From contig JAAFIG010000009.1 in assembly GCA_013298595.1 (NCBI GenBank), positions 1 to 64,000 on the forward strand: a stretch of 64,000 nt of DNA, written 5' to 3'. This document shows positions 9,051 through 29,166 of this stretch, piece by piece. This DNA is from Deinococcales bacterium (GTDB lineage: Bacteria > Deinococcota > Deinococci > Deinococcales > JAAFIG01). Below the pieces are notes generated by a model. It was not told where the DNA came from, made no database searches, and saw nothing but the letters and a program-made list of their open reading frames with translations. Positions within the stretch are counted from its first letter, which is position 1, and the number at the start of each line of letters is the position of its first letter. The position numbers and the translations under genes are program-made.

Positions 9051-9079
9051 TTGTTCAAGACCAAAAAACTCGGTACACT
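9051..9079 (+). promoter_or_regulatory. Promoter for the 9119-11247 gene set
   Basis: TTGTTC (9051-9056), a 17-bp spacer and TACACT (9074-9079) lie about 40 bp before the ATG at 9119. The three following genes are closely spaced in the same direction, so this may drive all of them. Confidence 0.65.
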
Positions 9080-9118
9080 TCCTGCGCTACGTGCCAATTG
9101 GCACTCGAGAGGAACATC

Positions 9119-9445: not shown

Positions 9446-10171
9446 ATGCAACTGGCGACAGGAGTTCACATTGGCTCGAGTATCGGCTACAAAGCCCTTA
9501 GCAGCCTCGAGTTCTATATTTTGGTTGGTGTGACAGGGGTTGGCAAAACCACCACCTTAAACGCCTTAGCAGCCCTTGGTGTGCAATTCTCGAGCTTACC
9601 TGATCGCCGCGAAATCACCGATGCGATTATTTTTGCAGGTAAAAAAATTACTGACCGCGCCGAGCGTTTTGCTCGAACAGCTGCATTTCGGAGCAATTAC
9701 CCTGGTGGTATGGCACAAGCCCTCGAGCAAATTTATCTTCAATTACCCGAACCGATTTTATTTGATGGTTTACGCGGCAAAAACGAAGTCCAACATGCGG
9801 CAAAAGCCTTTCCAAAAGCCAGATTTATTGCCTTAGATGCACCAGATATAACCAGAGTGCAACGCTTACTGGGACGCAACGACGCATTTGATACGATTAG
9901 CAGTGCAACAAAAAACAATCTGCGCGACATCCAAGGTATCGAAGCGATTTTCTCGAGCCAAGAAATTCTGCAACTCGAGCAATGGAATATCAACCCAGCA
10001 GAGCTTGAAGCAAAACTGAATATTGTTATTGCCGAACGGCAAAATTACGATCCTAAAGCCGCCAATGCCTTTCTGGCAACCCTCGAGCCTCGACGTTCCT
10101 TGTACCTCGAGACCAGCAGTGCTCGTGCCGAAACAATTGCTGAAAAGATTCGTACTTGGATGTTTGCATGA
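9446..10171 (+). CDS. P-loop ATPase of unknown function, 241 aa
   Basis: A Walker A motif GVTGVGKTT sits at about residues 28-36 after a hydrophobic strand YILVG. A likely Walker B strand is PILFDGLRG (about 107-115). The family is not one I can name; the fold looks like a short P-loop kinase or ATPase. The ATG follows the upstream TAA directly (TAAATG), and the stop overlaps the next start (ATGA at 10168), so translation is coupled at both ends. Many CTCGAG copies indicate resident DNA. The C-terminal half is helical and ends RTWMFA. Confidence 0.7.
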   Translation: MQLATGVHIGSSIGYKALSSLEFYILVGVTGVGKTTTLNALAALGVQFSSLPDRREITDAIIFAGKKITDRAERFARTAAFRSNYPGGMAQALEQIYLQLPEPILFDGLRGKNEVQHAAKAFPKARFIALDAPDITRVQRLLGRNDAFDTISSATKNNLRDIQGIEAIFSSQEILQLEQWNINPAELEAKLNIVIAERQNYDPKAANAFLATLEPRRSLYLETSSARAETIAEKIRTWMFA

Positions 10172-12724: not shown

Positions 12725-14217
12725 TTCTTTGCCTCCAATACAATTCCGTACAACTGTGCCACCACTGGTTTGACCAACTCGAGGGCAGGGGCACTATAAA
12801 CACCAAATAACACCACCAGTGCAACAATCGGCACAAGCACCGTCCATTCGCGTCTCGAGAGATCAGCCACAGAATGCGTGGCTTCTTCGTACCAAGTTTT
12901 CTGATACGCCGTTAACGCAAATGCAGCACTGGCAATGACGGTGGTTACGGCAATTGCAGCAATCCACGGATTGGCTTGATACGCACCCAATAAAATACTG
13001 TACTCACCAATAAACCCAGCCAAACCGGGCACACCAATACTGGCAAACCAAAGCAGCAATGCCACACCTGCAAACGCAGGTGCACTAGCAGCTAAACCAC
13101 GCACACGACCAATCTCGAGTGCCCGATCCAAAGCTTTTTCCTTGGATTCGTCACCACCCTCGAGCACAATAAAGCGCCGCTCGAGCATACCAACCACAAG
13201 GAACAACGCACTTGAGTAAATACCTTGGAAAGCCAGCAGTAAGATCGCACCACTTGAACCCGCAGGATGCAAACTAAAAACACCAAGCGCAACTAAACCC
13301 ATGTGCGAAATACCCGAGTAAGCCAGCAAGCGTTTGAAATCGGTTTGGGCAAAAGCAATCCAAGCACCATAAATCGCAGTGAATGCCGCCAGCAGCATCC
13401 AAATCCATTGGTAATTATTAGCAACATCAGGAAAAAGTGGTAAAGCAAACCGAAACAAGCCATAACCACCAACTTTGTATAAGGTACCCATCAAATCCGC
13501 TACACCACTTGGATGATTCTGACCATGAAATTCAGGTAACCAAGCGTGCATTGGAAATAACGGGGTTTTAACCGCAAAAGCCACCAAGAAACCCAGAAAT
13601 AACCAAACTTGTTGCCACTCAGGAATTTGACGCACACCACGCAACAAATCCTCGAGTAAAAAAGTTGGTGAACCTGATAACAACTTCGTACCAATAATAC
13701 TGACTAGCATCAGTAAACCACCAAAAACGGTGTACAACGCCATTGTGGTTAAAGCCTGCACTCGAGCTGCACGCCCATAACGCCCCAGCAAAAACAAACT
13801 AGGAATTAAGGTGCCCTCGAAAAAAACATAAAACAAAATCAAATCTCGAGCTGCAAAAATTCCCAGAATACCTGTTTCCATCGCCAAAGCCAGCGGGTAA
13901 AACGCACTGAGCTTGCCATCATCTCGAGATGTTAAGTAATACAAACCAATTGGCACCATGAGCGCAGTGACTAATGATAAAAGTAACGAAACACCATCGG
14001 TACTGACAGCATACTTCACACCAAGACCAGGCAACCAATCTATGACTGTTGAAAATTTATCAAAAGCAATACCACTTAACCAGATGTACACACCAATGGC
14101 TAAATTCGCAATACCCGCAAAAACCGCGAATTTACCTCGAGCTGCTTTAGGCACAGCTAATGAAAGCAATGCAGCCACCAGTGGCAAGAAAATAAACGCA
14201 TTCAAAACCCAATTCAT
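12721..14217 (-). CDS. nuoM: NADH-quinone oxidoreductase subunit M
   Basis: The 498-aa antiporter-like subunit of the complex I membrane arm. Diagnostic blocks are VKTPLFPMHAWLPEFHGQNHP, TDFKRLLAYSGISHMGLVALG, FFEGTLIPSLFLLGRYG (the glutamate of TM5) and GVPGLAGFIGEY. About 14 transmembrane helices. The start overlaps the stop of the 30-codon ORF at 14214 (ATGA), which in turn overlaps nuoL, and the stop overlaps nuoN, so three genes are translationally linked. Confidence 0.96.
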   Translation of the reverse strand: MNWVLNAFIFLPLVAALLSLAVPKAARGKFAVFAGIANLAIGVYIWLSGIAFDKFSTVIDWLPGLGVKYAVSTDGVSLLLSLVTALMVPIGLYYLTSRDDGKLSAFYPLALAMETGILGIFAARDLILFYVFFEGTLIPSLFLLGRYGRAARVQALTTMALYTVFGGLLMLVSIIGTKLLSGSPTFLLEDLLRGVRQIPEWQQVWLFLGFLVAFAVKTPLFPMHAWLPEFHGQNHPSGVADLMGTLYKVGGYGLFRFALPLFPDVANNYQWIWMLLAAFTAIYGAWIAFAQTDFKRLLAYSGISHMGLVALGVFSLHPAGSSGAILLLAFQGIYSSALFLVVGMLERRFIVLEGGDESKEKALDRALEIGRVRGLAASAPAFAGVALLLWFASIGVPGLAGFIGEYSILLGAYQANPWIAAIAVTTVIASAAFALTAYQKTWYEEATHSVADLSRREWTVLVPIVALVVLFGVYSAPALELVKPVVAQLYGIVLEAKK

Positions 14218-14306
14218 GCCAAGCCCCTATTCCCCAACTGTAACGGTGAGCGAACCTGACCGTCAGCGACCACGCATGTAAGTGTTGCCGTTACCACCCA
14301 AATCAT
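14214..14306 (-). CDS. Micro-ORF bridging nuoL and nuoM, 30 aa
   Basis: The ATG overlaps the nuoL stop and the TGA overlaps the nuoM ATG, both as ATGA, so the 30 codons exactly fill the nuoL-nuoM gap. The peptide begins MIWVVTATLTCVVADGQVRS and has no recognised domain. It may be a real small protein, or only a device that keeps ribosomes moving between the two genes. The DNA includes the palindrome TGACGGTCA, so a small insertion could also have created the gap. Confidence 0.4.
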   Translation of the reverse strand: MIWVVTATLTCVVADGQVRSPLQLGNRGLA

Positions 14307-16279
14307 GCGAACCCCCGCACAATTAAAAAAGCAATTAACGCAACAGTACCAATCAGCACTGAAACACCATAGCCTCGAGCAAACCCACTCTGCCAAAACG
14401 ATAAACTCGAGCCAGCTTCACTGACTTGCTCACCAAGCAGTTGCGCGCCACCTTGCACCCCGCTTTTATCCACAATGCCAAAGAAAACTGCTGCAACTCG
14501 AGACGGATTACCAAGCACGAAATCATAAACTTTATCAAGGAATAACGCATTTCTCGAGGCTGTACCAAAACCATTTGGCACTTCTGCCATAATTCGTGCT
14601 CCATCGCGCCTATAAAAGTAATTAGCAATAAAATACCCTGCAATAACAGCAATGATGCTACAAATTAACGGGATAAATTCAACAATGCCCTTTAATTCAG
14701 TCATACCTTTAGCATTCGCAGAGACTTTCTCGAGAAAAGGTTCAATCAGGTTCGCATTCTTACCAAGAAAGTGTGGTAACCCAATCCAGCCACCAATCAC
14801 ACTGAGTACAGCTAATATCATCAGTGGCAAAGTCATAACAGCACCTGATTCATGTGGATGTGCATTACCACGGTACTCGCCGCTAAAAACAAGCACATAC
14901 CAACGCCACATGTAAGCCGCTGTCATTGTGGCAACAATCACCATCACAGCAAACAAAAGAATATTGATCGAACCAACAGCATCTTTGCTACCATCAAAAA
15001 AAGGTGATTTTAAGGCACTCTCGAGAATCGCATCTTTAGAAAAGAAACCCGATAACAAAGGCACACCCATAATCGCCAATGTACCAATCAATGAAACAGC
15101 GTGTGTGGTTGGCAGTGCACCCCGTAAGCCCCCCATTTTACGAACATCTTGCTCCCCTTCGAGCGCATGAATCACACTACCACTCGAGAGAAAAAGCAGT
15201 GCTTTAAAAAAAGCATGGGTTAAAACATGAAAAATACCAACCCAGTACGCCCCGCAACCTACCGCCACAAACATAAAACCAAGTTGGGAAACGGTGCTGT
15301 ATGCCAAAATTTTCTTAATATCAGTTTGGGCAATAGCACTGACCGCGCCATACACTGCTGTTAATGCACCAACCCAAGCTACCCAACTCGAGGCAACAGG
15401 AGCATGGGCAAATAACTCGGAATTACGAGCCACCAAGTACACACCTGCTGTGACCATTGTCGCAGCATGAATAAGTGCTGAAACAGGTGTTGGACCCGCC
15501 ATCGCATCGGGCAGCCAAGTAGACAATGGCAATTGAGCACTTTTACCAGCCGCACCAAGCAACAAGAAAATACAAGCCAACTCGAGACCAGGTGCTCCAA
15601 ATGCCACAACATTCTTGGTAACTTGACCAACCAAAGGCACATTGATACTGCCAAACGATTCTCTAAGTTCATGCAAATTCAGTGTGCCAAATTCTTTAAA
15701 CAACAAGAACATACCAAGCATTAAAAACGCATCGCCCACCCTATTGACAATGAAAGCTTTACGCGCCGCATTGGAATTATTGAAATCCTTATACCAAAAA
15801 CCAATCAACAAGAAACTGGCAACGCCCACACCTTCCCAACCAATAAATAAGATTGGTAACGAATCGGCGAGCACTAAAACCAGCATAAAAGCAATAAAGA
15901 AATTTAAGTACGCAAAGAACCTCGAGAAACCCGAGTCGCCGTGCATATAGCCAATTGCAAAAACATGAATTAAAAACCCAATCCCTGTAATAATTAATGT
16001 CATCAAGCTCGAGAGTTGGTCAAGGGCAAACCCCATATGCAAAGATTTACCTTCACCACCAATAAACGGTAGGAACTCCCAAAGTTGCACATGCCATTGC
16101 TTGCCTTCTGCTAAACCCATCGTGCCAGCAAAACCTAGCACTGCCATCACAAACGACAACAAAATCATACCGCTTGCCACATACCCCGAAGTTGGCTCAG
16201 CTAAACGCTTACCAAAAGCAATCAGCAACAACCACCCAACCAACGGCGGCACAATCATGAAGTAAAAAATAGATTCCAC
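14303..16279 (-). CDS. nuoL: NADH-quinone oxidoreductase subunit L
   Basis: The 658-aa largest membrane-arm pump of complex I, with about 16 transmembrane helices including the long lateral-helix C-terminal region. Recognised blocks are GWEGVGVASFLLIGFWY (TM5 glutamate), AGKSAQLPLSTWLPDAMAGP (TM7 lysine), LIHAATMVTAGVYL, TDIKKILAYSTVSQLGFM and FFKALLFLSSGSVIHAL. It follows nuoK by 3 bp. Its stop overlaps the micro-ORF that leads to nuoM. Confidence 0.96.
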   Translation of the reverse strand: MESIFYFMIVPPLVGWLLLIAFGKRLAEPTSGYVASGMILLSFVMAVLGFAGTMGLAEGKQWHVQLWEFLPFIGGEGKSLHMGFALDQLSSLMTLIITGIGFLIHVFAIGYMHGDSGFSRFFAYLNFFIAFMLVLVLADSLPILFIGWEGVGVASFLLIGFWYKDFNNSNAARKAFIVNRVGDAFLMLGMFLLFKEFGTLNLHELRESFGSINVPLVGQVTKNVVAFGAPGLELACIFLLLGAAGKSAQLPLSTWLPDAMAGPTPVSALIHAATMVTAGVYLVARNSELFAHAPVASSWVAWVGALTAVYGAVSAIAQTDIKKILAYSTVSQLGFMFVAVGCGAYWVGIFHVLTHAFFKALLFLSSGSVIHALEGEQDVRKMGGLRGALPTTHAVSLIGTLAIMGVPLLSGFFSKDAILESALKSPFFDGSKDAVGSINILLFAVMVIVATMTAAYMWRWYVLVFSGEYRGNAHPHESGAVMTLPLMILAVLSVIGGWIGLPHFLGKNANLIEPFLEKVSANAKGMTELKGIVEFIPLICSIIAVIAGYFIANYFYRRDGARIMAEVPNGFGTASRNALFLDKVYDFVLGNPSRVAAVFFGIVDKSGVQGGAQLLGEQVSEAGSSLSFWQSGFARGYGVSVLIGTVALIAFLIVRGFA

Positions 16280-16282
16280 TTT

Positions 16283-16588
16283 TTATCCCTTCAAACTCGA
16301 GAGTTCATCCACATTTGTAGACACTCGTTTACGAAAAATTGCCACGATAATAGCAAGTCCAATCGCAACCTCAGCCGCAGCGAGGGTCAGAATAATAAAC
16401 ACCGCCGTTTGTGCCTCGAGATTCCCCCACGCTCGAGCAAATGCCACCAACACAAGGTTAGCGCTATTGAGCATCAACTCGACACACAAAAACATTTGAA
16501 TCACACTACGGCGCATTAAAAAACCAACCGCGCCAATCGAAAAAAGAATACCAGCCAAAGCAATGTAATACGAAGTCTCAACCATCAT
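16283..16588 (-). CDS. nuoK: NADH-quinone oxidoreductase subunit K
   Basis: The 101-aa subunit has three transmembrane helices. Glutamates typical of NuoK lie in MFLCVELMLNSANL and LTLAAAEVAIGLAI, both needed for proton transfer in characterised homologues. Two adjacent ATG codons are possible starts (16588 or 16585), with GGAG a few bases upstream. It sits between nuoJ and nuoL in the standard order. Confidence 0.95.
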   Translation of the reverse strand: MMVETSYYIALAGILFSIGAVGFLMRRSVIQMFLCVELMLNSANLVLVAFARAWGNLEAQTAVFIILTLAAAEVAIGLAIIVAIFRKRVSTNVDELSSLKG

Positions 16589-16640
16589 GTGCTCCTAGCA
16601 AAGCCAAGCGTACCTTACCCATACAATAAATTTGGTTCAT
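16578..16640 (-). CDS. Possible 20-codon ORF across the nuoJ-nuoK gap
   Basis: Its ATG overlaps the nuoJ stop (ATGA) and its TGA lies 8 bp inside nuoK. The peptide [20 protein letters not shown] has no known domain. It is best read as a candidate coupling ORF; chance is not excluded. Confidence 0.22.
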   Translation of the reverse strand: MNQIYCMGKVRLALLGAHDG

Positions 16641-17206
16641 GCCACAACCTCCTCGGGAGTATGGGTAGCCCGTTCCTCGAGGGTTTCCCTGACTTGCTTG
16701 CCCTCAGGTTCGCGTTTCACCAGAGCCACCGCACCCACCACAGCAACAATCAGCAACAACGAAACCGCTTCAAATGGCAATAAGAACTTAGTAAACAATG
16801 TCTCGCCAACAGGACCTGGTGTGCCACCCTGCAAAGCCTTTGCCGCTTCCTCGAGAGGCTTAGGGGCTTTAAACAAAAAGGCTGTATACGCAATCGCCCC
16901 AGCTAACACAATGCCACCCGCAATTGCCGCAGGCGCAACCCACTCGAGCGGATCAACTTCGTCCGAAGGATACTGAGCATTGAGCAACATAATCACAAAC
17001 AAAAACAACACCATAATTGCGCCTGCATACACAATCACTTGCACACTGGCAAGGAATTGCGCTTCAAGCGTCACAAAAATACAAGCTAAACTCAGCAGCG
17101 TACCCACCAAAGAAAGGGCACTATAAATAGCGTTCTTCCACAAAATCACGCCAAACGCCCCAACAATCGCCAGCAATGCCAACAACACAAACACAACCAT
17201 ATTCAC
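16637..17206 (-). CDS. nuoJ: NADH-quinone oxidoreductase subunit J
   Basis: The 189-aa membrane subunit has five transmembrane helices. The block [21 protein letters not shown] is the conserved TM3 region with its pi-bulge, diagnostic for NuoJ. A hydrophilic C-terminal tail ends EEVVA. The ATG overlaps the nuoI stop by 4 bp (17203-17206). Confidence 0.95.
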
Positions 17207-17883
17207 CGTTTCACGCCCTCTTTCTGAGGCGCAATCGGTGCAAACCCAACTCGAGACGGACTCGAACGACCAGCACCATCACCAGCATCTCGAGCCACAC
17301 TATGCGTACCAACACCCGAAGCGGGCAAACTCGAGATACGCGCCGAAGGATTCTTTAAAGCCTCTAGTGCCTCGGCAACCTCAGCTCGAGGCGTGATGTT
17401 ATAACCAACTTTGACAGGTTTGTTTTTAGCACTTGCCTCACGGCGCTGCGGTTTCGTACCAACCACACCAACCATCATGTCTTCTTTACCATAGACAAAA
17501 TCTCTGGACTTATAATCTGCCAACTCGAAATCCGTACCAAGGATAATTGCACCAGTCGGACAAGCCTCCTCGCACATGCCACAAAAAATGCAACGCAACA
17601 TATTGATCTCATAAACAGAAGCGTACCTCTCCCCTGCTGAAACCGTGTTGCTCGAGGTATTCTCCGCAGCTTCGACATAAATGGCATACGCAGGACACGC
17701 AGCAGCACACAACGAACAACCAATACACTTTTCTAAACCATTAGCGTGCTTAGTCAAAATATGCCGACCACGGAAACGTGGTTGCAAACGAATAGGGCTT
17801 TCCGGATAAGACACCGTTAGCGGCTTTTGAAACAACTTACCAAGGGTCGTACCCATGCCCTTAGCGATCTCGAGAACACCCAT
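17203..17883 (-). CDS. nuoI: NADH-quinone oxidoreductase subunit I (two 4Fe-4S clusters)
   Basis: The 226-aa peripheral subunit carries clusters N6a and N6b. Two ferredoxin motifs are intact: [17 protein letters not shown] and [16 protein letters not shown]. The C-terminal 60 residues are a Pro/Ser/Arg-rich extension that is longer than in many homologues. The gene is separated from nuoH by about 690 bp of inserted DNA (HTH gene, short ORF and hairpin element), whereas nuoH and nuoI are normally adjacent. Confidence 0.95.
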
Positions 17884-17915
17884 TTAAGAACCTCCGATGG
17901 AACATACAATTGCGA

Positions 17916-18356
17916 CTAAGTTTCAGCTCGTTTCAAAATTAATTCTTGATATTTTTCTTCAAAAGTATTTTCGTTAGACTTTAACCATTCTTTACCACTT
18001 TTTGTTAATTTATATAACTCATCTAAGCCATCTATTTTTCTTTCCAATAAGCCCTTTTCTGAGGCTTTTCGTAAATATTGATAATGCCGAGCGTTTTGAA
18101 AACCTCCATAAATTTGAGTATGAATTTGACTTATCGTTTGAAAATAATTAGTACAAACTCGCATCATATTATACAAAGCCTGACCTTCACTAATTTTATG
18201 TTTACTTATTATTCCGCGCTCTTTGCACCATCTGCCAACCGATGAATATGGTATCCCTGTTTCGCGTTCCACATCAGCTAAAGACATTCCTTCTTCCACT
18301 TTTTTAACTGCCATCTCTATTACTTCAAGACTATAGTGATTTTTACTCTTTGGCAT
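17916..18356 (-). CDS. HTH protein inserted between nuoH and nuoI
   Basis: The 146-aa protein begins MPKSKNHYSLEVIEMAVKKV and contains a helix-turn-helix of transposase-OrfA/psq type (SLADVERETGIPYSSVGRWC, about 28-47). The rest looks like a winged or helical module (HYQYLRKASEKGLLERKIDG). A GGAGG site lies 5 bp before the chosen ATG at 18356. Base composition is clearly more AT-rich than the nuo genes and it has no CTCGAG copy, both signs of recent acquisition. It could be a transcription factor or a remnant of a mobile element; no catalytic transposase domain is visible. Confidence 0.6.
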   Translation of the reverse strand: MPKSKNHYSLEVIEMAVKKVEEGMSLADVERETGIPYSSVGRWCKERGIISKHKISEGQALYNMMRVCTNYFQTISQIHTQIYGGFQNARHYQYLRKASEKGLLERKIDGLDELYKLTKSGKEWLKSNENTFEEKYQELILKRAET

Positions 18357-18377
18357 AAATACCTCCAATCATAATTT

Positions 18378-18560
18378 TCAGCCAGCAGCTTTGGCTCGAG
18401 CATGGGCAAAGGACTTAGGCGCATTGTTAAAAAATGCCCTCCTACACGGGCGACCCCTACGGTTGGACACCAAATTTCGCAGTCCAACCGCAGGGGAGGG
18501 TCTCGTACCCTCCCTGACCTGCATAAGCCCAAAGCTATTTCTACCACCAATCAATTTCAT
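18378..18560 (-). CDS. Short ORF carrying a palindromic element, 60 aa
   Basis: The ATG at 18560 lies 13 bp after the nuoH stop with AAAGGA upstream. The peptide begins MKLIGGRNSFGLMQVREGTR and is Arg-rich in its middle, where the coding sequence is a large inverted repeat (18430-18512). It ends AKAAG 21 bp before the HTH gene. The pattern recalls palindromic elements that insert in frame into ORFs, as described in Rickettsia. Whether it is translated is unknown. Confidence 0.3.
   Translation of the reverse strand: MKLIGGRNSFGLMQVREGTRPSPAVGLRNLVSNRRGRPCRRAFFNNAPKSFAHARAKAAG
18430..18530. repeat. Palindromic repeat element in the nuoH-nuoI gap
   Basis: CCCCTACGGTTGGAC pairs with GTCCAACCGCAGGGG with one mismatch around a 13-nt loop. 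A second stem GGGAGGGT/ACCCTCCC follows directly. Together they form a strong hairpin cluster of REP/MITE type. No copy of the same sequence was noticed elsewhere in the window. Confidence 0.7.
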
Positions 18561-18573
18561 GACCGTAATTCCT

Positions 18574-19695
18574 TTAATCCCCTGCACTAGCTCGAGCAGG
18601 AGCAGGTCGGGTTGTACTTCTCGAGGTAATAACAAAAATCAGTAATAAAGCAACCAGACTGATTGCACCCAAAATCCACGGACTACCATTTGGTAAATAC
18701 CCACGGAAAGCCGCTGCGCCCAATGTATTAAGCAACGCCACTGGAAACAAGAACTTCCAACCAAATTGCATTAACTTGTCGTACCGCATCCGAGGCAAGG
18801 TCGCACGCACCCAAATAAACACAAATAAGAACAAACCAATTTTTGCATACAACCAAATAAATGGAATGTTCCCAATGTTAAAGCCAGCAATCTCGAGATT
18901 CGGTCCTTTGTACCCACCAAAAAATAAAGTACTCATGACTGCCGCTGCTGTAATCATGGCAACGTACTCTGCCATTTGAAACAACGCCCATTTAATGCTC
19001 GAGTACTCTGTTAAAAAACCTGCGACCAATTCTTGTTCTGCTTCGGGAAGATCAAAAGGTGAACGATTGGTTTCCGCAAAAGCTGATACAAAAAAAGTCA
19101 TAAAGGCAACGCATTGAAAAAGAATTAACCAACCATTGGTTTCTTGCCATTTCACAATCTCGAGCAAATTCATACTACCAACCAGAATCAGTAAACCAAG
19201 CACACTTAAACCCATGCCAAGTTCGTATGAAATCACTTGTGCACTGGCACGAAGCCCACCAAGTAAAGGGTACTTACTACCGGATGCCCAACCACCCAGA
19301 AAAATGCCGTACACGCCAATGCTGGTAACACCAAGCACAAATAGCAAACCAATATCCAAATTAAACACCCAAGGGTCAGTGCCAAATAAACTGCCCGCAG
19401 GACCTGCTGGAATCGCACCAAAAGCTGTTAAGGACATTGTAATAGCAATGAGTGGTGCAATCCAGTAAACAAATTTATCTGCCAAAGTAATATTGACATC
19501 TTCCTTGAAAATACTTTTAATCGCATCCGCAAGGGGTTGCGCTAAACCAAGAGGACCAACCCGATTTGGACCTTGGCGCATTTGGAAACGCCCTAACAAG
19601 CGACGTTCGATCAGGGTCATGTAGGCGAAAGTGGTAAGCAGCCCAAGGGCTACACCAATAGCTTTTAGTAAAACAATTAAAATCTCGAGAATCAT
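18574..19695 (-). CDS. nuoH: NADH-quinone oxidoreductase subunit H
   Basis: The 373-aa subunit forms much of the quinone-binding site at the junction of the two complex I arms. It has about 8-9 transmembrane helices. Conserved blocks are [58 protein letters not shown] and [20 protein letters not shown] precedes the ATG. It is separated from nuoG by a lipoprotein gene and from nuoI by inserted DNA. Confidence 0.96.
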
Positions 19696-19704
19696 ATTTT
19701 TTCC

Positions 19705-20310
19705 TTATGGGTTGATGTTAAATGGGTCAAGATTACTTGGGGTCACTCGGAATTTTTCTTCGCCAAAACCACGATTCACAACAATTGAAAATGAGACAGT
19801 CTTATCTATGTTTGCTAGGTCACTTGGATTCAGTTGGTCGAAATCATATCGCACACCTGGTAAGACACCCTCCACACTTGCGTTACGCAATTGTGCAAAC
19901 TCTTTACCATCTTTATCTTCTAAGGAAAGATACAACGAGACTTTCTTGAAATCTGTTTCTTTCGTAAAAACAACAACATAAGCATGAGCATCTCTGATTT
20001 GTTGTTTAAATGCACCTGAAGAAAAGTATTGGTCTCGAGCAGTTGCTGTCTGCAATCCAAAACTAAAAAGTTGACAGAAAATACCAACTTTACCTGGTGT
20101 TGACATAAAATTTACAGCACCATTAACTGATGCAAAAGGCTTCTGACCTATGTAACTTCCTGGGGGTTGAGTAATAGCAGCTGTGCAACCTTTTTGTGCT
20201 GCACTTTCTGATGCTACAAAAACCACTCGTGACCATGATTCATTACCAACGGATGTAGGAGCACAACTGACGAAAATTGCCAAAAAGATCAAACCAAAAA
20301 TTCTTTTCAT
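19705..20310 (-). CDS. Lipoprotein of unknown function inside the nuo operon
   Basis: The 201-aa protein has a short signal and lipobox, [20 protein letters not shown], so Cys16 is the predicted lipidated residue. The mature part has no family I recognise; it is a mixed beta-rich sequence with two further cysteines. Its ATG overlaps the nuoG stop (TGATG) and its stop lies 9 bp before nuoH, so it is translated with the complex. Only one CTCGAG copy is present. Other Deinococcota lipoproteins of this look are uncharacterised; a role in complex I is not implied by sequence. Confidence 0.65.
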   Translation of the reverse strand: MKRIFGLIFLAIFVSCAPTSVGNESWSRVVFVASESAAQKGCTAAITQPPGSYIGQKPFASVNGAVNFMSTPGKVGIFCQLFSFGLQTATARDQYFSSGAFKQQIRDAHAYVVVFTKETDFKKVSLYLSLEDKDGKEFAQLRNASVEGVLPGVRYDFDQLNPSDLANIDKTVSFSIVVNRGFGEEKFRVTPSNLDPFNINP

Positions 20311-22682
20311 CAGTCATCGCCTCCGACCATGACTGCAATTTTGACACTCGAGAGCGCTCCTGGCAAATCGGTATTTAATGCAGGTATTGTTGGGGCACTT
20401 ACTGCTTCATCAATACGAACTGTTACAGCTCGAGCTTTCCCACCAACTTCTAACTCGAGGTTAAATCCGTCATGGATACCGAGTTTTTGGGCATCACTCG
20501 AGTTAACTGTTAAGTAATCTGCGCCGACACTTTCGCGGATGCGGTTACTCGAAAGCATATTTTCTGTCCACATACGCGGCACAAGCAATACTGTTTCGCC
20601 AGTGGTTGAGCGCACAATTGGGGCTGACCTGCTCGAGACTGGTTTGGTTGGGAATGCACCTTCAACAGGGATTTTATCCATCTCGAGTCCGAATTTATCT
20701 TGCAAAATTCTTTGAGCACTGCGCGTACCACGAATCTCGAGTTTGGCATTCATCGCATCAGAAATAACTTGTAATGCCCCAATCACATCCACACTTTGTC
20801 CACCATCTACGGCAGCTCCAGTTAACGGCAGTAATCGCCCCTCGAGATTCATGGTGGTGCCTCGTTTCTCGTAAGCGGTACTGGCTGGAATAATCACATC
20901 CGCCTCGAGTGCAGCGCCTGTTAATGTATGGGTATGAATCACTAATAACTCGAGGGATTTAGGGCGTTTACTGAGCATTGAACCCGAAACAAATAAACCC
21001 TTTAAGCCATCCCATTGCCCGAAGCTACGCCCGTTCTTGGCTGGAACAAGCTCGAGTGTCTCGAGTCCAGCACCATTTGCCCCCGCAGGAATTGGCATAA
21101 TTTTGCCGCCAAGTTTCTTCGCTGCTGCCAGCACTTTTTCGGCATCGGTGGCGAGGGCAAAACTACCCAGCACAATCACAGGATTTTTAGCCGCCGCCAA
21201 GAGTTTACCAGCGGCATTAGCTTGAGCATTACTCGAGTCCGTACCAGATTTGGCTTGGTTTATCTGAGCTAACAACTCGAGTTCAGAACCCACAGCGTAC
21301 AAACTCGAGATTCCCGCGTGGCTCATTTGTTGCACTGGAATTGGCGCAAAAACCGCAAGTTTAGAGCGCTTTCTATCCATGCGTTCTTTTAAGCGCAAAT
21401 CTGCCAACGGTGCGCCATGATTAAACTGGGCATCGGAACTGATTACACCTTTCAAGGATTCTTCGATACGCAAATAAGCTGTGCCACTTTCCTCGTATAA
21501 ATCTGCACCAATCACAATAATCGCGTCAGCTTTGGCTAAATCGGTAAAGGTTGCCCTGCTCACACCACCTAAACCACTGTTGTAACGCGGGAAGTGATCC
21601 ACATTAATGGTGGCAATGGTCTTGGCAAACGACTCGAGAGCCACTCCTTCCTCGAGCGTGATATCTGCGCTGGTGTACAAGCCCAAACTCTTTGGCTCGA
21701 GATTCGCTTTTCTAATGGCTTCGACTGCCTCATCGAAGGTTGCTACCTCGAGCTTGCCATTGCGTCGCACCATCGGGCTACGTACTCGAGCATCGGCATC
21801 CACCCATTCATGCCCGAAACGCTGCGCGTCGGAAATCCAAATTTCGTTGACTTCTTTGTTATGTGCAGCCCGAATACGTTCAATTCGCCCAGTACGAGCA
21901 TCCACCCAAATACTCGAGCCATCAGCATTAGACATATCCGTGGTTTGAGCGCGATCGTACTCCCAGTTGCGCCCACGGAATCTCGAGACATTATCGAGCA
22001 GCGCACCAACAGGACAGAGATCGTTGATATTGCCCGAGAAATTACCCAGTTTTGCACCAGCTAAATCCTCGGATTGATACGAATCGATAAAAGTATGCCC
22101 GCCACGTTCGATGAAATCCAAAACTTCCTCACCAGGAATTTCCTCGAAGTAACGCACACAACGTTTACAGTGAATGCAACGTTCTTTATCCAGCACAATA
22201 AAATCGGATAGTGCATGGTGCTTATCGGCATGACGGCGCGTAAATTCAAAACGGGCTTCACCGTAACCATACTCGTAAGCTCTGTCTTGGAGTTCGCAGG
22301 CACCACCCTTATCACAAGTTGGGCAATCAAGCGGATGATTAATCAGCGTAAATTCCATCATGCCAGCTTGGGCTTTGACAGCAGCGTCCGTCGTTGTTTT
22401 AATCACCATGCCTTCAGAAACCGCGAGGGTACAACTTGCTACTGTGCCAGGAAAATAAAATAACTTAGGCAATCCAGTGGATTCCTCGAGAATCCAAGAA
22501 CCATCAGGGTTTTTACGTGGCGAACCAGCTTCGACCAAGCACATTCGACACGCACCAATAGGTGAAAGGTACTCATTCGAGCAGAAATAAGGCACATCGA
22601 AACCCGCATGGAAAACCGCATCCAAAGCAGATGAGCCATTGGCGACTTCGATTTCACGATCATTGACGATTACTTTTGGCAT
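20310..22682 (-). CDS. nuoG: NADH-quinone oxidoreductase subunit G
   Basis: The 790-aa subunit is the large electron-wire protein of the complex I peripheral arm. The 2Fe-2S domain has [15 protein letters not shown] plus a fourth Cys in ASCTLAV. Then come a HxxxCxxC type motif ([17 protein letters not shown]), the 4Fe-4S motif ERCIHCKRC with a distal Cys in NDLCPVGAL, and a long molybdopterin-oxidoreductase-like C-terminal region without molybdenum-site function. Length is close to Thermus Nqo3. It follows a lipoprotein gene instead of nuoF, which lies 1.5 kb upstream. Confidence 0.96.
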
Positions 22683-22702
22683 ATTATTTTCCTATCACGG
22701 GT

Positions 22703-23107
22703 TCAATACCCATTTACAGAAGTAAAATTATTTGTTGAAGAATTTCCCATCACTGTTGACTTGAATTCACCATCATTTAAAACTTCCATTTTACAAGAAC
22801 CACCGTTTTTAACAACATCAGGTATTCTTTTCCAAGTAATATCTGATTTTCTTCCTTCTATAAACAATTCTGGTTTTTCCAAAAGACACTTTGTAGAAAT
22901 TTCTCTTGCTATTTCTTGTCTAAGATCTTTATATGACAATCTAGTTTTATCCACTTCAAATATTTCAACTGCATTCGCAGCACTATACAAAGTTCTAGCG
23001 AACACTTTAATCTCACGTTTTTGTTCATCTAAGGTATCATTTGCACTTGGCGCACAACCTAGTAAAAAAACAATAGACACTAATGCAATACTCCACAATT
23101 TATTCAT
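22703..23107 (-). CDS. Small lipoprotein between nuoF and nuoG
   Basis: The 134-aa protein has signal and lipobox MNKLWSIALVSIVFLLGCAP (Cys18). The mature region is charged, with two cysteines (STKCLLEK and GSCKMEV) that could form a disulphide, and ends in a Ser/Asn-rich tail. No family is recognised. DNA is AT-rich and lacks CTCGAG, suggesting acquisition. Its ATG overlaps the stop of the 33-codon ORF (ATGA); its stop lies 20 bp before nuoG. Confidence 0.65.
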   Translation of the reverse strand: MNKLWSIALVSIVFLLGCAPSANDTLDEQKREIKVFARTLYSAANAVEIFEVDKTRLSYKDLRQEIAREISTKCLLEKPELFIEGRKSDITWKRIPDVVKNGGSCKMEVLNDGEFKSTVMGNSSTNNFTSVNGY

Positions 23108-23205
23108 ACTGAACCCACTTGAACCGCACGCTGTACAACAAGGGTAAAACCCACCTCGAATACAACGTTTTCATTTTTGCCTTTTTTTTCGAGCACGAAT
23201 TTCAT
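23104..23205 (-). CDS. Micro-ORF bridging uma2 and lipoprotein genes, 33 aa
   Basis: The ATG overlaps the Uma2 stop and the TGA overlaps the lipoprotein ATG, both as ATGA. The peptide starts MKFVLEKKGKNENVVFEVGF. The FEV block recurs in the 31-aa micro-ORF at 27104. Double coupling makes translation likely, but no function can be assigned. Confidence 0.45.
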   Translation of the reverse strand: MKFVLEKKGKNENVVFEVGFTLVVQRAVQVGSV

Positions 23206-23783
23206 GACCACCACTCCAAATTCACATCTGGAAACTCGAGTGGCACAATACTTTGTCCTTTAGATAACGTCATTTTTGTTTTGTACGTTTCTCCTTCTGG
23301 GTCGCGGTAAACCTCGAGTTGACTGGTTTGCACATTCAAAATCCAGTATTCAAGCACGCCGTTTCTGGCGTACAATTTTTGTTTGAATGTTCGATCATCT
23401 ACCAAAGTGGAATCGCTGATTTCTATGGCAATACTAATTTCATCTGAACGAACAACTCGAGGTTCGTATCGCTCGAGTGGGGTGATGGTGAAGTCTGGCA
23501 CTGGCATATTGAAATCTTCGGTTAATCGCATGGTTTGTTGTGGAATCACTCGGGCTTTTTTGAAGAACGCTATGACAAGTTTTTCGTTGATAGAACCTGT
23601 CCAAGTGCTGTGTCCATCACCATCTGCGTTCATGTCAATGATCTCCCCATCCAGTAATTCAACTTTGCGTCCGTAAAATAAACCCACTTTGCCCAATTGC
23701 TCAAATTCTTGCACTGTGAAACGATAACGCCGCTCGAGAAGCGTTAATGGCGTTGCTGGCGTTTGGTTGATAAGTTGCGTCAT
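23202..23783 (-). CDS. Uma2 family nuclease-like protein (DUF820)
   Basis: The 193-aa protein belongs to the Uma2/DUF820 family, a PD-(D/E)XK fold expanded in cyanobacteria and Deinococcota and predicted to be a nuclease. Visible core: VELLDGEIIDM (about 42-52), PVPDFTITPLE (catalytic Asp), IAIEISDST (catalytic Glu) and KQKLYARNGVLEYWI (lysine and following helix). The C-terminus ends LEFPDVNLEWWS. GAGGTGAAACG precedes the ATG. Five CTCGAG copies show it has been resident a long time, despite sitting inside the nuo operon. No transposase is nearby. Confidence 0.85.
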   Translation of the reverse strand: MTQLINQTPATPLTLLERRYRFTVQEFEQLGKVGLFYGRKVELLDGEIIDMNADGDGHSTWTGSINEKLVIAFFKKARVIPQQTMRLTEDFNMPVPDFTITPLERYEPRVVRSDEISIAIEISDSTLVDDRTFKQKLYARNGVLEYWILNVQTSQLEVYRDPEGETYKTKMTLSKGQSIVPLEFPDVNLEWWS

Positions 23784-23799
23784 CGTTTCACCTCAAATC

Positions 23800-24069
23800 T
23801 TATTCTTCTGTTTCTATGGCTGCATTCATTTCTCGAGCATGAATTTCTAAGTGCGATAACGACCCGTACAAAGCTGTCTCGAGAATGTCGCGGTCTGGAT
23901 GATTGGCTGGTAATTGCTTTAAGGCTTTGATTAACTCGAGGTAATGCGTGGCTTCTTCGGCAAGTTCTTCCCAAAGCACGTTCTGCCCGCCAAAATGCTG
24001 AGCCATGATTGGATTGTCTAGCGTTTGCGTTTCAGGCGTTCCTCGAGTCGAAGTATTTCTTGTTGCCAT
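23800..24069 (-). CDS. Hypothetical 89-aa protein inside nuo operon
   Basis: The start is well supported by a strong AAAAGGAGG site 7 bp upstream. The protein begins MATRNTSTRGTPETQTLDNP, then is helical and acidic (ELAEEATHYLELIKAL, LSHLEIHAREMNAAIETEE), with no cysteine or membrane segment. I do not recognise a family. It lies 16 bp before uma2 and 17 bp after the 41-aa ORF. An antitoxin-like partner of Uma2 is possible but purely positional. Four CTCGAG copies indicate resident DNA. Confidence 0.6.
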   Translation of the reverse strand: MATRNTSTRGTPETQTLDNPIMAQHFGGQNVLWEELAEEATHYLELIKALKQLPANHPDRDILETALYGSLSHLEIHAREMNAAIETEE

Positions 24070-24086
24070 GCGCTTACCTCCTTTTC

Positions 24087-24212
24087 TCAGTGTTTGATTA
24101 AACCAATGTTCGGGTATTCTTTGCTGCGTTCCAATGCAATTTTCTCGAGGTGTTCTTGAAGTGGGATGCTTAGCCCACGAATACGATTGCGAATGTGTTT
24201 GTTTTCACCCAT
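24087..24212 (-). CDS. Small basic ORF after nuoF, 41 aa
   Basis: The ATG overlaps the nuoF stop as TAATG and the ORF ends just before the strong ribosome-binding site of the next gene. The peptide begins [20 protein letters not shown], is basic at the N-terminus and helical at the C-terminus (HLEKIALERSKEYPNIG). It contains one CTCGAG in frame as Leu-Glu. It resembles a short DNA-binding or antitoxin-type peptide only in charge; no family is recognised. Confidence 0.5.
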   Translation of the reverse strand: MGENKHIRNRIRGLSIPLQEHLEKIALERSKEYPNIGLIKH

Positions 24213-25570
24213 TACTCGTCTTTCCAGCGATTGCCGTAACCTGTGTACATGGGTTTGCCATGCTGTGCAATGTATTCAAATTCATCGCGGAAGAGTTTCA
24301 TGGCACTCTGCACTGGCATGATGCAGCTATCGGCAAGTAAACAAAACGATTTGCCTTTGATGTTGCCAAATAAATCCTCGAGAATTTTGACATCGTTTGG
24401 GTCGCCTTTTCCGCTAATGAGTTTCTGGAAAATTCGGTTCATCCAAGTGCCAATTCCTTCGCGGCAAGGAGTACATTTACCACAGGATTCATGTCCATAG
24501 AACCGCACGTAGTTGTACATCATATTGACAATATCGCAATTTTGCGGAATCAGAATAATGCCGCCTGTTCCAAGAAAAGTGCCTTTGGCAGCGCAATTTT
24601 CGTAATCGGCTTGCATGTCCAGAATCTCATCGGTGAATGGCAGCATTGGGGTACTCGAGCCACCAGGGTTAAAGGCTTTGATTGGTTCGGTTGGTCCACC
24701 GCCCCATGTGTAAATGATTTCGCGGTACGTTGTGCCGAGCGGCAATTCGTAGACACCGGGTCGCTTGATGGGTCCGGAAATATGAAATAAGAAATTGCCT
24801 TTGGATTTTTCTGTTCCCATGCTCGAGAACCAGTCCGCTCCGTGGCGCATAATTAGCGCTGCCGAGGCGATACTAACCACATTATTCACTGTGCTTGGCA
24901 TGCCAAAAATTCCAGCTTGAGCAGGAAATGGTGGTTTCAAACGCGGATTCGCTCGCAGCCCCTCGAGTGAATTCATCAGGGCAGTTTCTTCGCCACAAAT
25001 GTATGCCCCTGCACCGCGATGCACATGGACTTCCATGCTTTTGCCAAAACCAAGCGCGTTCTCACCGAGGATGCCAGCGGCTCGAGCTTCGGCAATAGCA
25101 GCGTTTAAGCGGTTTGCTCCAAGAATATACTCGCCGCGAATATAGATATAACCAACATTGGCACGGATTGCGTGCATTCCAATCAGCATTCCCTCGAGCA
25201 GTTGGTGTGGGTCGGCTTCCATCAGGTAACGGTCTTTGTACGTGCCGGGTTCAGATTCATCGGCATTGCACACCAAGTAATGGGGTTTGCCATCTTCTTT
25301 GGGCATGAACGACCACTTAACACCCGTGGGGAAACCAGCGCCACCACGTCCACGCAGACCCGCTTTTTTGACTTCGTCTTGCACCGATTCAGGAGTGCCA
25401 GCCAAAGCTTTTTTAGCACCTTCATACGCCCCATGACGCAAGGCATACTCGAGTGTCCAAGAATTGTTCTGCCCAACGTGTTCGTATAAGCGCGGTTTGA
25501 AACGTGGGTCTAAACCACTGGTAATGCTCTTTGGTTTTTCTGGCGAGACAACTTCGGCAACTGCGGTCAT
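24212..25570 (-). CDS. nuoF: NADH-quinone oxidoreductase subunit F (NADH/FMN site)
   Basis: The 452-aa subunit oxidises NADH. Marks are the NADH-binding [16 protein letters not shown], the FMN region [17 protein letters not shown], the loop [16 protein letters not shown], and the N3 cluster ligands [10 protein letters not shown] with a distal Cys near CLLADS. Length is typical. The start overlaps the nuoE stop (ATGA). Confidence 0.97.
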
Positions 25571-26148
25571 AAAATTGCTCCTTCAGCCGTGATTTGCGTC
25601 ACAACATCCCCATTTTTTTGCACAAACACAGGTGCTCGAGTATCGGATTCGGGCATGCTGCCATCACCTCGAGCTTTGAAATCGGCAAGTAAGGCATTTA
25701 AGCGTTTTTTGGTCAGGCATTCGTAATAGCCACTATCAGAAACTTGCATTAACGGTGCGGTACCGCATGAACCAAGGCATTCGACTTTTTGCACACTAAA
25801 TAAACCATCTGATGTGACATCGCCCACACCAATATCAAGTGTTTCGCACAAGTAATCCCACATTTGATCTGAACCAGCCAACGCACACGAAAGCGTCATG
25901 CAAACCTGCAAATGATACTTCCCAGTTGGACTACTCGAATAGGTGCTGTAAAAACTCATCACCGATTTCACTTCGGTTGGTGTGCTTTTAATAATGGCAG
26001 CAATTTCAGCCACTCGAGCATCGGAAACAAAGCCTTCGGCATTTTGCACTTCACGCAGCAAAGGCATGACTGCACTGCGTTCACGTCCGACAGGGTAACG
26101 AGAAAGAATTTCTGCAACGAGGGCTTGTTTATTGGCAAAGAAACTCAC
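25567..26148 (-). CDS. nuoE: NADH-quinone oxidoreductase subunit E (2Fe-2S)
   Basis: The 193-aa thioredoxin-like subunit carries cluster N1a. Ligands are [10 protein letters not shown] and CLGSCGTAP. The start is GTG at 26148, overlapping the stop of the upstream membrane protein (GTGA), with GGAGG 7 bp upstream. It directly precedes nuoF as usual, but nuoD lies about 1 kb upstream instead of adjacent. Confidence 0.95.
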
Positions 26149-26573
26149 GGTTTAACCTCCGCTTCCAAAGCAGCATTGTTATCTTTCGATAAACTAAAAT
26201 AAGTAACGACCAGCAGTAGAACAAAAATAAAACCAATTATCCAAGCAATTTCTGGGTTTTGTGGGGACACAAGGCTTTTGATAACGCGATCTGCTCCTAA
26301 ACCTGAAAGTACAAATATGGGAAAAAGTCCAGACAAATTAGACCCATTTTTTGTGACAATTGAAACAATATAAACAAGCACAAAGATACCTATTATAGAA
26401 ACCAATACACCTCCATAATTTATCAACGGCGCACTTTTAGAAACGTTAACTTGAATCTCGAGATATATCGAGTAAATGGTCAACGAAAATCCAATACAAA
26501 ATGGAAGAACTCCGAATAGCATAAAAATAGACGAATTTACTTTTCTAAAATTTGAATGTAACAAGTCTTTCAC
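26145..26573 (-). CDS. Hypothetical membrane protein between nuoD and nuoE
   Basis: The 142-aa protein has four predicted transmembrane helices (about 16-37, 50-72, 83-95, 108-126) and a short charged C-terminus ending EAEVKP. I find no family. A GTG start at 26573 is supported by GGAGG 6 bp upstream, and the stop overlaps the nuoE GTG. The DNA is AT-rich with one CTCGAG copy. It forms a pair with the next gene and is probably expressed with complex I. Confidence 0.6.
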   Translation of the reverse strand: MKDLLHSNFRKVNSSIFMLFGVLPFCIGFSLTIYSIYLEIQVNVSKSAPLINYGGVLVSIIGIFVLVYIVSIVTKNGSNLSGLFPIFVLSGLGADRVIKSLVSPQNPEIAWIIGFIFVLLLVVTYFSLSKDNNAALEAEVKP

Positions 26574-26645
26574 ACAATGCCTCCAAAATATTAAACAATC
26601 ACCGCTATCACATAACTCGTAAATTTATTTAGGAAATATATCCTC

Positions 26646-27104
26646 TTATTGATTGCCACTAGTCAGTTTTTGTTGTTCTAAATATAAAAAACCCACAATC
26701 ACAGGTGACATAAAAACAAAAACTATCAAAAATATAATCAATGGATTGGAGCTGTACGTATTTCGGGTCAAATGCAAAAACATAGGAATAAATAAAAATA
26801 CATTGCCCCTTAGGAAAAAATTGATGTATTTTTGAATGTAAAGAATCCTTTTTGGAACAAAAGTTATTAATACTAAAGAAACTGTACTAAAAAGAGGCAG
26901 CAAAGACACCAAAATATCAGTCGGGTTTAGTAATTTAAGATTTGAGACAAGTAAAAAGGATTTTGCAACCACATCAACCGTATCGCGCAACAACCAAACT
27001 GATGGCACTACGCCAAAGATAAATTTTATCCAAAACCAGCGTGTCGTGTTCAAGAAAAAATAACTTAACTTATGCTGAGATAGTACTGAATTATTAGATT
27101 CCAT
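26646..27104 (-). CDS. Hypothetical membrane protein downstream of nuoD
   Basis: The 152-aa protein has four hydrophobic helices (about 25-45, 63-84, 98-112, 123-144). It begins MESNNSVLSQHKLSYFFLNT. Three GTG codons precede the chosen ATG at 27104; I prefer the ATG because it overlaps the stop of the 31-aa micro-ORF (TGATG). The DNA is AT-rich and lacks CTCGAG. No family is recognised, and a shared origin with the 26145 gene is possible but not clear by eye. Confidence 0.55.
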   Translation of the reverse strand: MESNNSVLSQHKLSYFFLNTTRWFWIKFIFGVVPSVWLLRDTVDVVAKSFLLVSNLKLLNPTDILVSLLPLFSTVSLVLITFVPKRILYIQKYINFFLRGNVFLFIPMFLHLTRNTYSSNPLIIFLIVFVFMSPVIVGFLYLEQQKLTSGNQ

Positions 27105-27199
27105 CACCACCACCTGATTTCAACATCTGTAAACTCGAGAACCTCAAATGCAATTAGCATTTGAGGTTTGTTTCCATCTCGAGTTACTTTTATGCTCAT
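27104..27199 (-). CDS. Micro-ORF after nuoD with Uma2-like tail, 31 aa
   Basis: The ATG lies 4 bp after the nuoD stop with AGGT upstream, and its TGA overlaps the next ATG (TGATG). The peptide begins MSIKVTRDGNKPQMLIAFEV and ends LEFTDVEIRWW. That tail closely matches the end of the Uma2 protein (LEFPDVNLEWW). It may be a remnant or relative of a Uma2-associated reading frame. It contains a 10-bp perfect hairpin (27142-27166) between two CTCGAG copies. Confidence 0.45.
   Translation of the reverse strand: MSIKVTRDGNKPQMLIAFEVLEFTDVEIRWW
27142..27166. repeat. Perfect 10-bp hairpin flanked by CTCGAG
   Basis: CCTCAAATGC and GCATTTGAGG pair with a 5-nt AATTA loop; CTCGAG lies on each side (about 27134 and 27178). 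No T-run follows on the minus strand, so it is not an obvious terminator. It could attenuate or stabilise the nuo mRNA downstream of nuoD. Confidence 0.6.
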
Positions 27200-27203
27200 G
27201 ATT

Positions 27204-28475
27204 TTACCTGTCTACATCGCCCATCACGGGATCAAGGCTGGCGATTACAGTGATTAAATCGGCGAATAATCCACCAATGCCAATGACTGGTAAGGCTTGG
27301 AGGTTAACAAAACTTGGGCTACGGAAATGAATACGGTATGGCATACTGCCACCATCCGAAACAATGTACGCACCAAGTTCACCTCGAGCCGATTCGGTTG
27401 GAACATAGGCTTCGCCTTTAGCTGGGTGGTAGCCTTCTGTCACCAATTTGAAGTGATGAATCACGGCTTCCATGCTAGTCTCGAGTTCTTCACGTGGTGG
27501 TAAACTAATTTTGCGATTTGGGTCTTGGATTGCGCCTGGTTTTAGTTTTGATAGTGATTGACGGCAAATTTTGGCACTTTCGCGCATTTCTTGAACGCGT
27601 ACCACAAATCGGTCGAAGCTATCGCCGTGTGTGCCTAGTGGAATATTGAAATCGTATTGTTCGTAGCCGCTGTATGGCGTGGTTTTGCGGTGATCGAGGG
27701 CAACGCCTGAAGCGCGAAGGTTTGGTCCTGTAATTCCGAGGTCAAGCGCAACCGCAGCACTCATGACGCCAACGTTTTGGGTTCGCTCGAGGAATAACGG
27801 ATTGGTTTTGAAGAGTTTTTCGTAGTCGTCTACTTTGGCATCGAAGGTATCGAGGAATTTCTTGACCATGGCTTCAAAACCTTCTGGGGTATCTTTAGCC
27901 ACGCCACCAACGCGGAAATAGCCTTGGTGTAAGCGTTGCCCTCCGATGGCTTCAAAAATATCCAAGATGGCTTCGCGTTCGACAAAGGTGTAAAAAAATG
28001 GGGTCAGTGCGCCCAAATCGAGTAAACCTGTGCCTAAAAACACAAGGTGGCTCGAGATACGGTTAAGTTCGGTTAGCAACACTCGAATTTCTCGAGCGCG
28101 TTCGGGAACTTCTGCGCCGACCAATTGCTCGACGGGTAAGGCATAAGCCAGTTCGTAGCCAAAACCATGTAAGTAATCCATGCGTGGTGCAAAGGTAAAG
28201 TTTTGTGCGTAAGTGCGGTTTTCCATGGTTTTTTCAAAACCAGTGTGCAAGTAACCAATATGCGGTTCGACCCGTCGGACGTACTCGCCTTCCATATCCA
28301 CAACCACCCGTAACACACCGTGGGTGCTTGGGTGTTGCGGTCCGACATTTAAGCGCATCACTTCGGTGTGCAACAAACCACTACCACCCGTTAAGCTCGA
28401 GCGTTGCTGAGGAATCATCACTTCGGCTCGAGATTCGAGTTTTGGCATGACTGGAGGTTCTTTGAGTTGCGTCAT
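27204..28475 (-). CDS. nuoD: NADH-quinone oxidoreductase subunit D
   Basis: The 423-aa subunit, a relative of NiFe-hydrogenase large subunits without the metal site, lines the quinone cavity. Blocks seen: [14 protein letters not shown] (quinone-site His), [44 protein letters not shown] and the C-terminal [12 protein letters not shown]. The start overlaps the nuoC stop (ATGA). Confidence 0.97.
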
Positions 28476-29080
28476 GATTGATTGCTCCTTTCTGGTACGG
28501 CTGTTGGTAATTTTGGTATCAGGCTCGAGTCGATGCGGCTGCCACCGCGCCAGCCTGATAATCCTGTGTCTTTGCCGCTTAGACCAGCGCGGAATGCACT
28601 TGGGTCGAGGAAGCGTCCTTCACGGAACAGGGTTGGTGTTTCGCCAAGTGGGAAATCTTTACGAAGCGGATGACCGTCTAAATCTTCTGGGGTGAGAATT
28701 TTTCGCATGTCTGGATGGTCGTCAAATTCTATGCCGAATAAATCAAACACTTCACGTTCATGAAATTCGGCTGTGCGCCAAATATCGGTAATCGTTGGGA
28801 GTGTTTCGCTATCTGGCAAGTAAACTTTGACCAAAATCCGTTCGCCATTGCTGGCATTGAGTAAATTATAAATAACGCCAAAGCGCTCAGGCATGAACTC
28901 GGTAAACTCGAGATAATCTACTCCCATCACATCGGCACAAATGCTAAACCCAGCAGCTTTGCATTCAAATAAAAAGGCTTTGAACGTATCGCGGGCAGCA
29001 ACAACTGTTTTGATTTTTCCCTCGAGAATGGTGTATTCACGCAGTGTAGCTTTCTCGAGGGCAGTGGTTAATGCACTCAT
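28472..29080 (-). CDS. nuoC: NADH-quinone oxidoreductase subunit C
   Basis: The 202-aa subunit has the 30-kDa family signature [20 protein letters not shown] followed by [13 protein letters not shown] start at the ATG at 29080 because GGAGGAAACTC directly precedes it; a longer frame to 29116 has no ribosome-binding site. The C-terminal 40 residues ([17 protein letters not shown] onward) form a flexible extension. The stop overlaps nuoD. Confidence 0.95.
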
Positions 29081-29166
29081 GAGTTTCCTCCAAGTAAGGC
29101 ATGTTGAGCGAGGCATACCGCACCACTACGATTGAGTGACAACAAGAAACAGCTTTCGTCTTTCAT
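29077..29166 (-). CDS. Micro-ORF between nuoB and nuoC, 29 aa
   Basis: An AAAGGACA site precedes the ATG at 29166, 20 bp after the nuoB stop. The TGA overlaps the nuoC ATG as ATGA. The peptide begins MKDESCFLLSLNRSGAVCLA; the nuoC ribosome-binding site lies within its last codons. It is a candidate coupling ORF and may not make a stable product. Confidence 0.35.
   Translation of the reverse strand: MKDESCFLLSLNRSGAVCLAQHALLGGNS

Follow-up and report, generated by a model that had tools for sequence, protein, structure and literature searches.

Do the short open reading frames (ORFs) that fill gaps between the genes of a bacterial operon encode proteins, do they carry ribosomes from one gene to the next, or do they arise by chance? 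This question is raised by the 64,000-nt stretch of contig JAAFIG010000009.1 from a Deinococcales bacterium (hereafter, the window), which carries the complex I operon, nuoA-nuoN, on its minus strand. The original prediction for this DNA listed six micro-ORFs, that at nuoJ-nuoK only as a possible case, as exact bridges between neighboring genes of the operon, held that such matched ends are unlikely by chance, and proposed that the micro-ORFs keep ribosomes on the mRNA or encode tiny proteins. We found that the six ORFs are of several origins and do not form one class; in the window genome and its closest relatives, most bridging micro-ORFs of the complex I operon are left over from inserted repeats and dead genes. 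Judging from sequence comparison, inserts at junctions that once shared a stop and a start codon tend to stay readable, probably so that ribosomes can move on to the next gene.

The window genome comprises 4.58 Mb in 68 contigs. It was compared with G001 (record JAAFJQ01), a member of the same genus with 94% identity in nuoD; with G002 and G003 (record JANXTZ01 for the latter, 84% identity in nuoD), which belong to the same family; and with more distant Deinococcales. The analysis covered some 19% of the sequence of the window genome and 25% of that of G001.

Inserts at coupled junctions of the nuo operon

All six ORFs are present, on the minus strand, although the stop/start overlap ATGA is found at both ends in only two of them: the 30-codon ORF between nuoL and nuoM (14214-14306) and the 33-codon ORF between a Uma2 gene and a lipoprotein gene (23104-23205). 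Each of the other four meets only one neighbor exactly, so that the description of exact bridging does not hold for them. The nuoJ-nuoK ORF (16578-16640, 20 codons) starts at the nuoJ ATGA and stops 8 nt within nuoK, and the nuoB-nuoC ORF (29077-29166, 29 codons) starts 20 nt past the nuoB stop and ends in the nuoC ATGA; the remaining two (24087-24212 and 27104-27199) have separate origins and are considered below.

The ancestral junctions were tight: in G003, nuoL-nuoM and nuoB-nuoC are ATGA overlaps, and nuoJ and nuoK abut with no insert. At the same three junctions, 48-189 nt have been added in the window genome and in G001, and although these inserts are unlike in size and sequence, each genome keeps the bridging frame open. 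At nuoL-nuoM, bridges of 30 codons in the window genome and 40 codons in G001 have ATGA at both ends, in spite of different sequences; at nuoJ-nuoK, bridges of 20 and 66 codons, respectively, both start at the nuoJ ATGA and both stop 8 nt within nuoK; and at nuoB-nuoC, ORFs of 29 and 21 codons both stop within the nuoC ATGA. Frame-breaking changes beside intact neighbors were not found at the three junctions in G001, and in this respect the original prediction survived the comparison. The peptides of the three ORFs have little or no clear similarity between the two genomes, which speaks against the tiny proteins proposed for these junctions; since neither lengths nor sequences are conserved, a single class of functional micro-proteins can be rejected.

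The G001 inserts at nuoL-nuoM, nuoJ-nuoK and nuoB-nuoC contain repetitive extragenic palindromic (REP) elements that start with GTAG, including GTAGGGGCGAACCCCTGTGTTCGCCC and GGGCGAGGCATGCCTCGCCCCTAC, and a variant is found at nuoM-nuoN. The nuoL-nuoM bridge of G001 contains two GTAG-type palindromes, the nuoJ-nuoK bridge a REP palindrome, and the 21-codon counterpart at nuoB-nuoC carries CGTAGGGGCGAGGCACGCCTCGCCC; the nuoB-nuoC ORF of the window genome holds a degenerate REP. The nuoL-nuoM insert of the window genome has no clear match to the GTAG consensus. It carries a 21-nt imperfect direct duplication (18 of 21 positions) of the junction, one copy at each end. REP-like GTAGGGGCGA sites number 78 in the window genome, 140 in G001, 87 in G002 and 17 in G003, and at most four in each of four other genera searched; the reversed control yielded 0-3 sites, compared with the 78 and 140 of the window genome and G001. 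Several types of repeats were found in bridges overall, namely, GTAG REP dimers, a CTCCCCC...GGGGGAG type and a 24-nt tandem repeat.

Involvement of a REP-associated tyrosine transposase (RAYT) is not supported: the window genome and G001 have a single Y1_Tnp gene each, with no GTAGGGG or CCCCTAC in the flanks examined, and by eye the G001 protein resembles TnpA of IS200/IS605. As side observations, a gene between nuoH and nuoI (17916-18368) has a weak match to a transposase-type helix-turn-helix and adjoins the repeat-rich segment 18420-18520, and G001 has a direct duplication within nuoB (L033 2935-3044, contig C77), possibly an assembly artefact.

Other coupled junctions show the same pattern. 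The pyrR-pyrB junction has an ATGA-to-ATGA bridge in both the window genome and G001, of 49 and 36 codons, with different sequences. The nuoM-nuoN junction is a direct, uninterrupted ATGA overlap in the window genome (12721-12724), whereas the G001 insert at this site, some 158 nt long, includes an ATGA-to-ATGA bridge of 53 codons. The peptide of this bridge starts MTP-VFELMPV, a shortened, partial copy of the nuoN N-terminus MTPPDVNVLSLMPV; thus, part of the nuoN start was duplicated. Two further junctions (L193 and L204) are bridged in G001, and their orthologs in the window genome are direct ATGA overlaps, so that, counting nuoM-nuoN, three junctions are bridged in G001 and directly overlapping in the window genome. 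At the site orthologous to L226, G003 has its own 63-codon ATGA-to-ATGA bridge with a REP, and G001 has one of 55 codons; the downstream genes differ. In the G001 ortholog of L094, also an ATGA junction, the insert forms one frame with the downstream gene and extends its N-terminus. Where the other species has no ATGA coupling at a junction, inserts mostly lack a bridge, as at L074, L085|13-12 and L087. A rule by which every REP between co-oriented genes is bridged is ruled out by the unbridged cases. Duplication of the junction is not a universal signature either: it is clear only at nuoL-nuoM of the window genome and nuoM-nuoN of G001, suggestive at L193 and absent at the others compared, and the duplication scores of L185a and L185b arise from tandem repeats or from self-overlap of the compared windows.

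These comparisons suggest that the nuoL-nuoM and nuoJ-nuoK ORFs and, more weakly, the nuoB-nuoC ORF are by-products of short repeats, mostly of the REP type, that landed in coupled junctions and were kept readable for reinitiation, an explanation that we consider rather probable. Under this model, the repeats would have entered junctions whose stop and start codons overlapped or touched each other. The clearest cases would involve a duplication, either of the junction itself or of the opening codons of the gene after it, which leaves the old ATGA at the left end and provides a second one for the gene at the right end. A ribosome could then finish the upstream gene, restart at the first ATGA, translate a meaningless peptide as far as the second ATGA, terminate there and begin the downstream gene, and because this path is available, the frame between the two ATGAs would be kept open while the sequence turns over freely. 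Coupling by reinitiation is nearly lost at a stop-to-start distance of about 20 nt (PMC10666635); therefore, genes coupled by ATGA should become uncoupled by an insert between them unless translation runs through it. An open frame with coupled ends and any peptide sequence is what read-through of inserts predicts, and we infer that the bridges are translated, that reinitiation occurs at their ends, and that selection maintains them.

Alternatively, the bridges might shield the mRNA from Rho-dependent termination rather than serve reinitiation. Any translated gap would have this effect, the operon is long, and inserts at coupled junctions stay open; however, the nuo operon has unbridged gaps of similar or larger size upstream of nuoA, at nuoA-nuoB and at nuoH-nuoI, and shielding would not require ATGA at both ends, so that we regard this explanation as improbable.

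Frequency of bridging compared with chance

Another alternative is chance alone: GC-rich, stop-poor REP inserts, frequent ATGA starts and a long operon scanned by a reader could produce apparent bridges with no selection on them. We counted bridges in all same-strand gaps of 20-300 nt in 864 kb of the window genome (n = 402). Loosely defined bridges are frequent (119 of 402). Strictly bridging ORFs were found in 9 gaps, compared with 7.8 ± 2.1 in dinucleotide shuffles; therefore, the general argument from unlikely ends fails, and genome-wide bridging as a general phenomenon is ruled out.

The argument holds in a narrower setting, that is, for gaps that span 40-300 nt and are bounded by ATGA on both sides, which were collected from the window genome and 1.1 Mb of G001 (N = 29). 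The expected number of open bridges was calculated as the openness in shuffled sequences multiplied by a frame chance of 1/3. The length of the gap gives a bridging frame in 17 of 29 cases (9.7 expected, P = 0.0045), and this frame is open in 9 of the 29 (2.6 expected, P = 0.0004). When the discovery case and the duplicate pyrR-pyrB were left out, 15 of 27 were in frame (P = 0.014) and 7 were open, compared with 2.3 expected (P = 0.005); with all nuo junctions removed, 6 open bridges were observed versus 2.1 expected (P = 0.014). Conversely, ATGA-ended gaps of the wrong length show no excess of openness (3 of 12, 2.1 expected). Together with the persistence of bridges at nuoL-nuoM and pyrR-pyrB while their sequences were replaced, this makes chance a doubtful explanation, although one that deserves to be weighed seriously. 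The proposal that micro-ORFs keep ribosomes on the mRNA finds indirect support, and this at ATGA-coupled junctions only, from frames kept through sequence turnover and from the excess over shuffles.

Several observations weigh against selection for bridging, beginning with the genome-wide count at the chance level. The window genome by itself has 2 open bridges versus 1.0 expected, which is not significant, and most of the signal comes from G001. GC-rich palindromes contain few stop codons. The statistics draw on some 2 Mb of sequence, on gene calls of our own making and on 27-29 junctions, and L193, L204 and nuoM-nuoN were picked for examination because they are bridged. Among individual junctions, G002 leaves a gap of 40 nt unbridged at the site orthologous to L226, nuoC comes with a Shine-Dalgarno sequence of its own, and the L103 insert, at a -4 (GTGA) junction, has no bridge, the coupling being lost.

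A truncated gene, a gene remnant and their surroundings

Two of the six ORFs turned out to have other origins, in protein-coding genes. The ORF at 24087-24212, which starts at the nuoF TAATG and ends 17 nt before the gene for an 89-aa protein (23800-24069), comprises codons 1-41 of a 64-aa gene, intact in G001 (MGENKHLRNRIRGL...HWEKEVSAWQQEILRLEERLKRKR). In the window genome, codon 42 has changed from TGG to TGA; past this codon, the frame is open to 24018 and nearly identical to that of G001, and the 89-aa gene overlaps its end, as the two genes also overlap in G001. The two copies of the 64-aa gene are 94% identical, with 16 synonymous and 5 nonsynonymous nucleotide differences, stop included; therefore, this frame probably encoded a protein until a short time ago. 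Relatives of the 64-aa and 89-aa genes adjoin each other in four other Deinococcales genomes (G005, G021, G024 and G039); no Pfam match was found for either gene. It is at this locus that a further alternative, in which the micro-ORFs of the operon encode small proteins with a function, finds its support, in a conserved family with more synonymous than nonsynonymous change. However, the 64-aa gene is truncated in the window genome, and the nuoL-nuoM, nuoJ-nuoK and nuoB-nuoC peptides, which differ from those of G001, are absent in G003; we consider this alternative very improbable.

The 31-codon ORF at 27104-27199, which starts 4 nt past the nuoD stop and ends in a TGATG, holds a 3' remnant of a Uma2 gene (PF05685) with homology to the C-terminus of this family. 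Its segment 27104-27139 is identical in 34 of 36 nucleotides to the 3' end (12 codons, stop counted) of a full-length Uma2 gene that follows nuoD in G001. A second short copy of the Uma2 tail is present 400 nt further on in G001, and an ORF with a Uma2 tail also lies in this interval of G003. In the window genome, the tail includes a Shine-Dalgarno-like AGGTGG and the TGATG for the next gene; therefore, it may have been kept to serve that gene as a ribosome-binding site. For the remaining ORF, 23104-23205, which adjoins the Uma2 gene at 23202-23783 (minus strand, Pfam match PF05685), an orthologous junction was not found, and G001 and G003 have different genes at this place.

Some further observations concern the surroundings of these genes. 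The nuo operon of the window contains accessory genes at nuoD-nuoE, nuoF-nuoG, nuoG-nuoH and nuoH-nuoI, and contig C67 of the window genome carries a second complex I-like gene set (about 1445-10965). Uma2 3' tails recur as short pieces before genes for small membrane proteins (27104-27139; L033 5883-5918 and 6319-6360; L034 14917-14952), and the conserved piece starts at CTCGAG, so that recombination at this hexamer is a possibility. CTCGAG occurs 386 times in the window and 27,159 times in the 4.58 Mb (1 per 169 bp), compared with 15 occurrences of GAGCTC. This abundance, for which we found no report in the literature on the Deinococcales group, is shared by all four genomes of the family, is also strong in G016 and G008 from another family of the order, and resembles that of the HIP1 palindrome of cyanobacteria.

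Comparison with known systems

The six ORFs are thus in part ordinary, comprising a truncated gene, a gene remnant and chance; the other part we interpret, with moderate confidence, as an outcome like that of mycobacterial interspersed repetitive units (MIRUs), reached in Deinococcales with REP-type and other repeats. A broader proposal is that, in this family of Deinococcales, unrelated repeats in ATGA-coupled junctions become ribosome bridges whose sequence does not matter and which only selection for an open frame and coupled ends maintains, so that the coupling outlasts the insertion; the arguments for and against it seem to us evenly balanced. If it is true, MIRU-like bridging would be a general evolutionary outcome and not a property of one mobile element, selection on the continuity of translation between cistrons would be strong enough to hold meaningless frames open, and these junctions would provide natural insertions with known states before and after the event for testing the role of translational coupling in operon evolution. 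In that case, small ORFs between genes whose ends match those of their neighbors may often be bridges or relics, and not proteins.

For MIRUs, run-through of inserts at coupled junctions was proposed earlier, and the bridging arrangement is thought to permit insertion with little effect on the adjacent gene (reviewed in PMC12548453). The likeness is close: an internal ORF overlaps both neighbors by stop/start at nuoL-nuoM and pyrR-pyrB in both genomes, at nuoM-nuoN, L193 and L204 in G001 and at one G003 site, while among the other ORFs reported in the window only 23104-23205 has this arrangement. The insertion took place at a pre-existing coupled site, as an insert-free ortholog with a direct ATGA exists for nuoL-nuoM, nuoM-nuoN, L193 and L204. 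Conversely, the Deinococcales bridges carry several types of repeats and not one shared ORF-bearing family, some of their junction copies exceed 4 bases, and the hosts are not mycobacteria.

GTAG-tagged REPs, like the elements studied here, are palindromes that start with GTAG and lie singly or as inverted pairs between co-oriented genes, and they reach into ORFs or lie inside them (PMC3733652). As far as the cited parts of that paper go, they are described within genes or as a source of stop codons and not as coupling bridges; in addition, the RAYT associated with REPs was not identified in the window genome or in G001. The palindromic elements of Rickettsia, as cited in PMC3733652, are similarly palindromic repeats kept readable within genes; however, they are located inside proteins, whereas the Deinococcales inserts lie between genes, except for the N-terminal extension in the G001 ortholog of L094. 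Finally, mgtQ, between mgtC and mgtB, and synthetic nonsense ORFs demonstrate that a short ORF placed before a cistron raises the translation of that cistron (PMC8092293; PMC13255528). The action of mgtQ depends on acidic codons and RNA structure, whereas the Deinococcales bridges conserve the frame only, and not the sequence.
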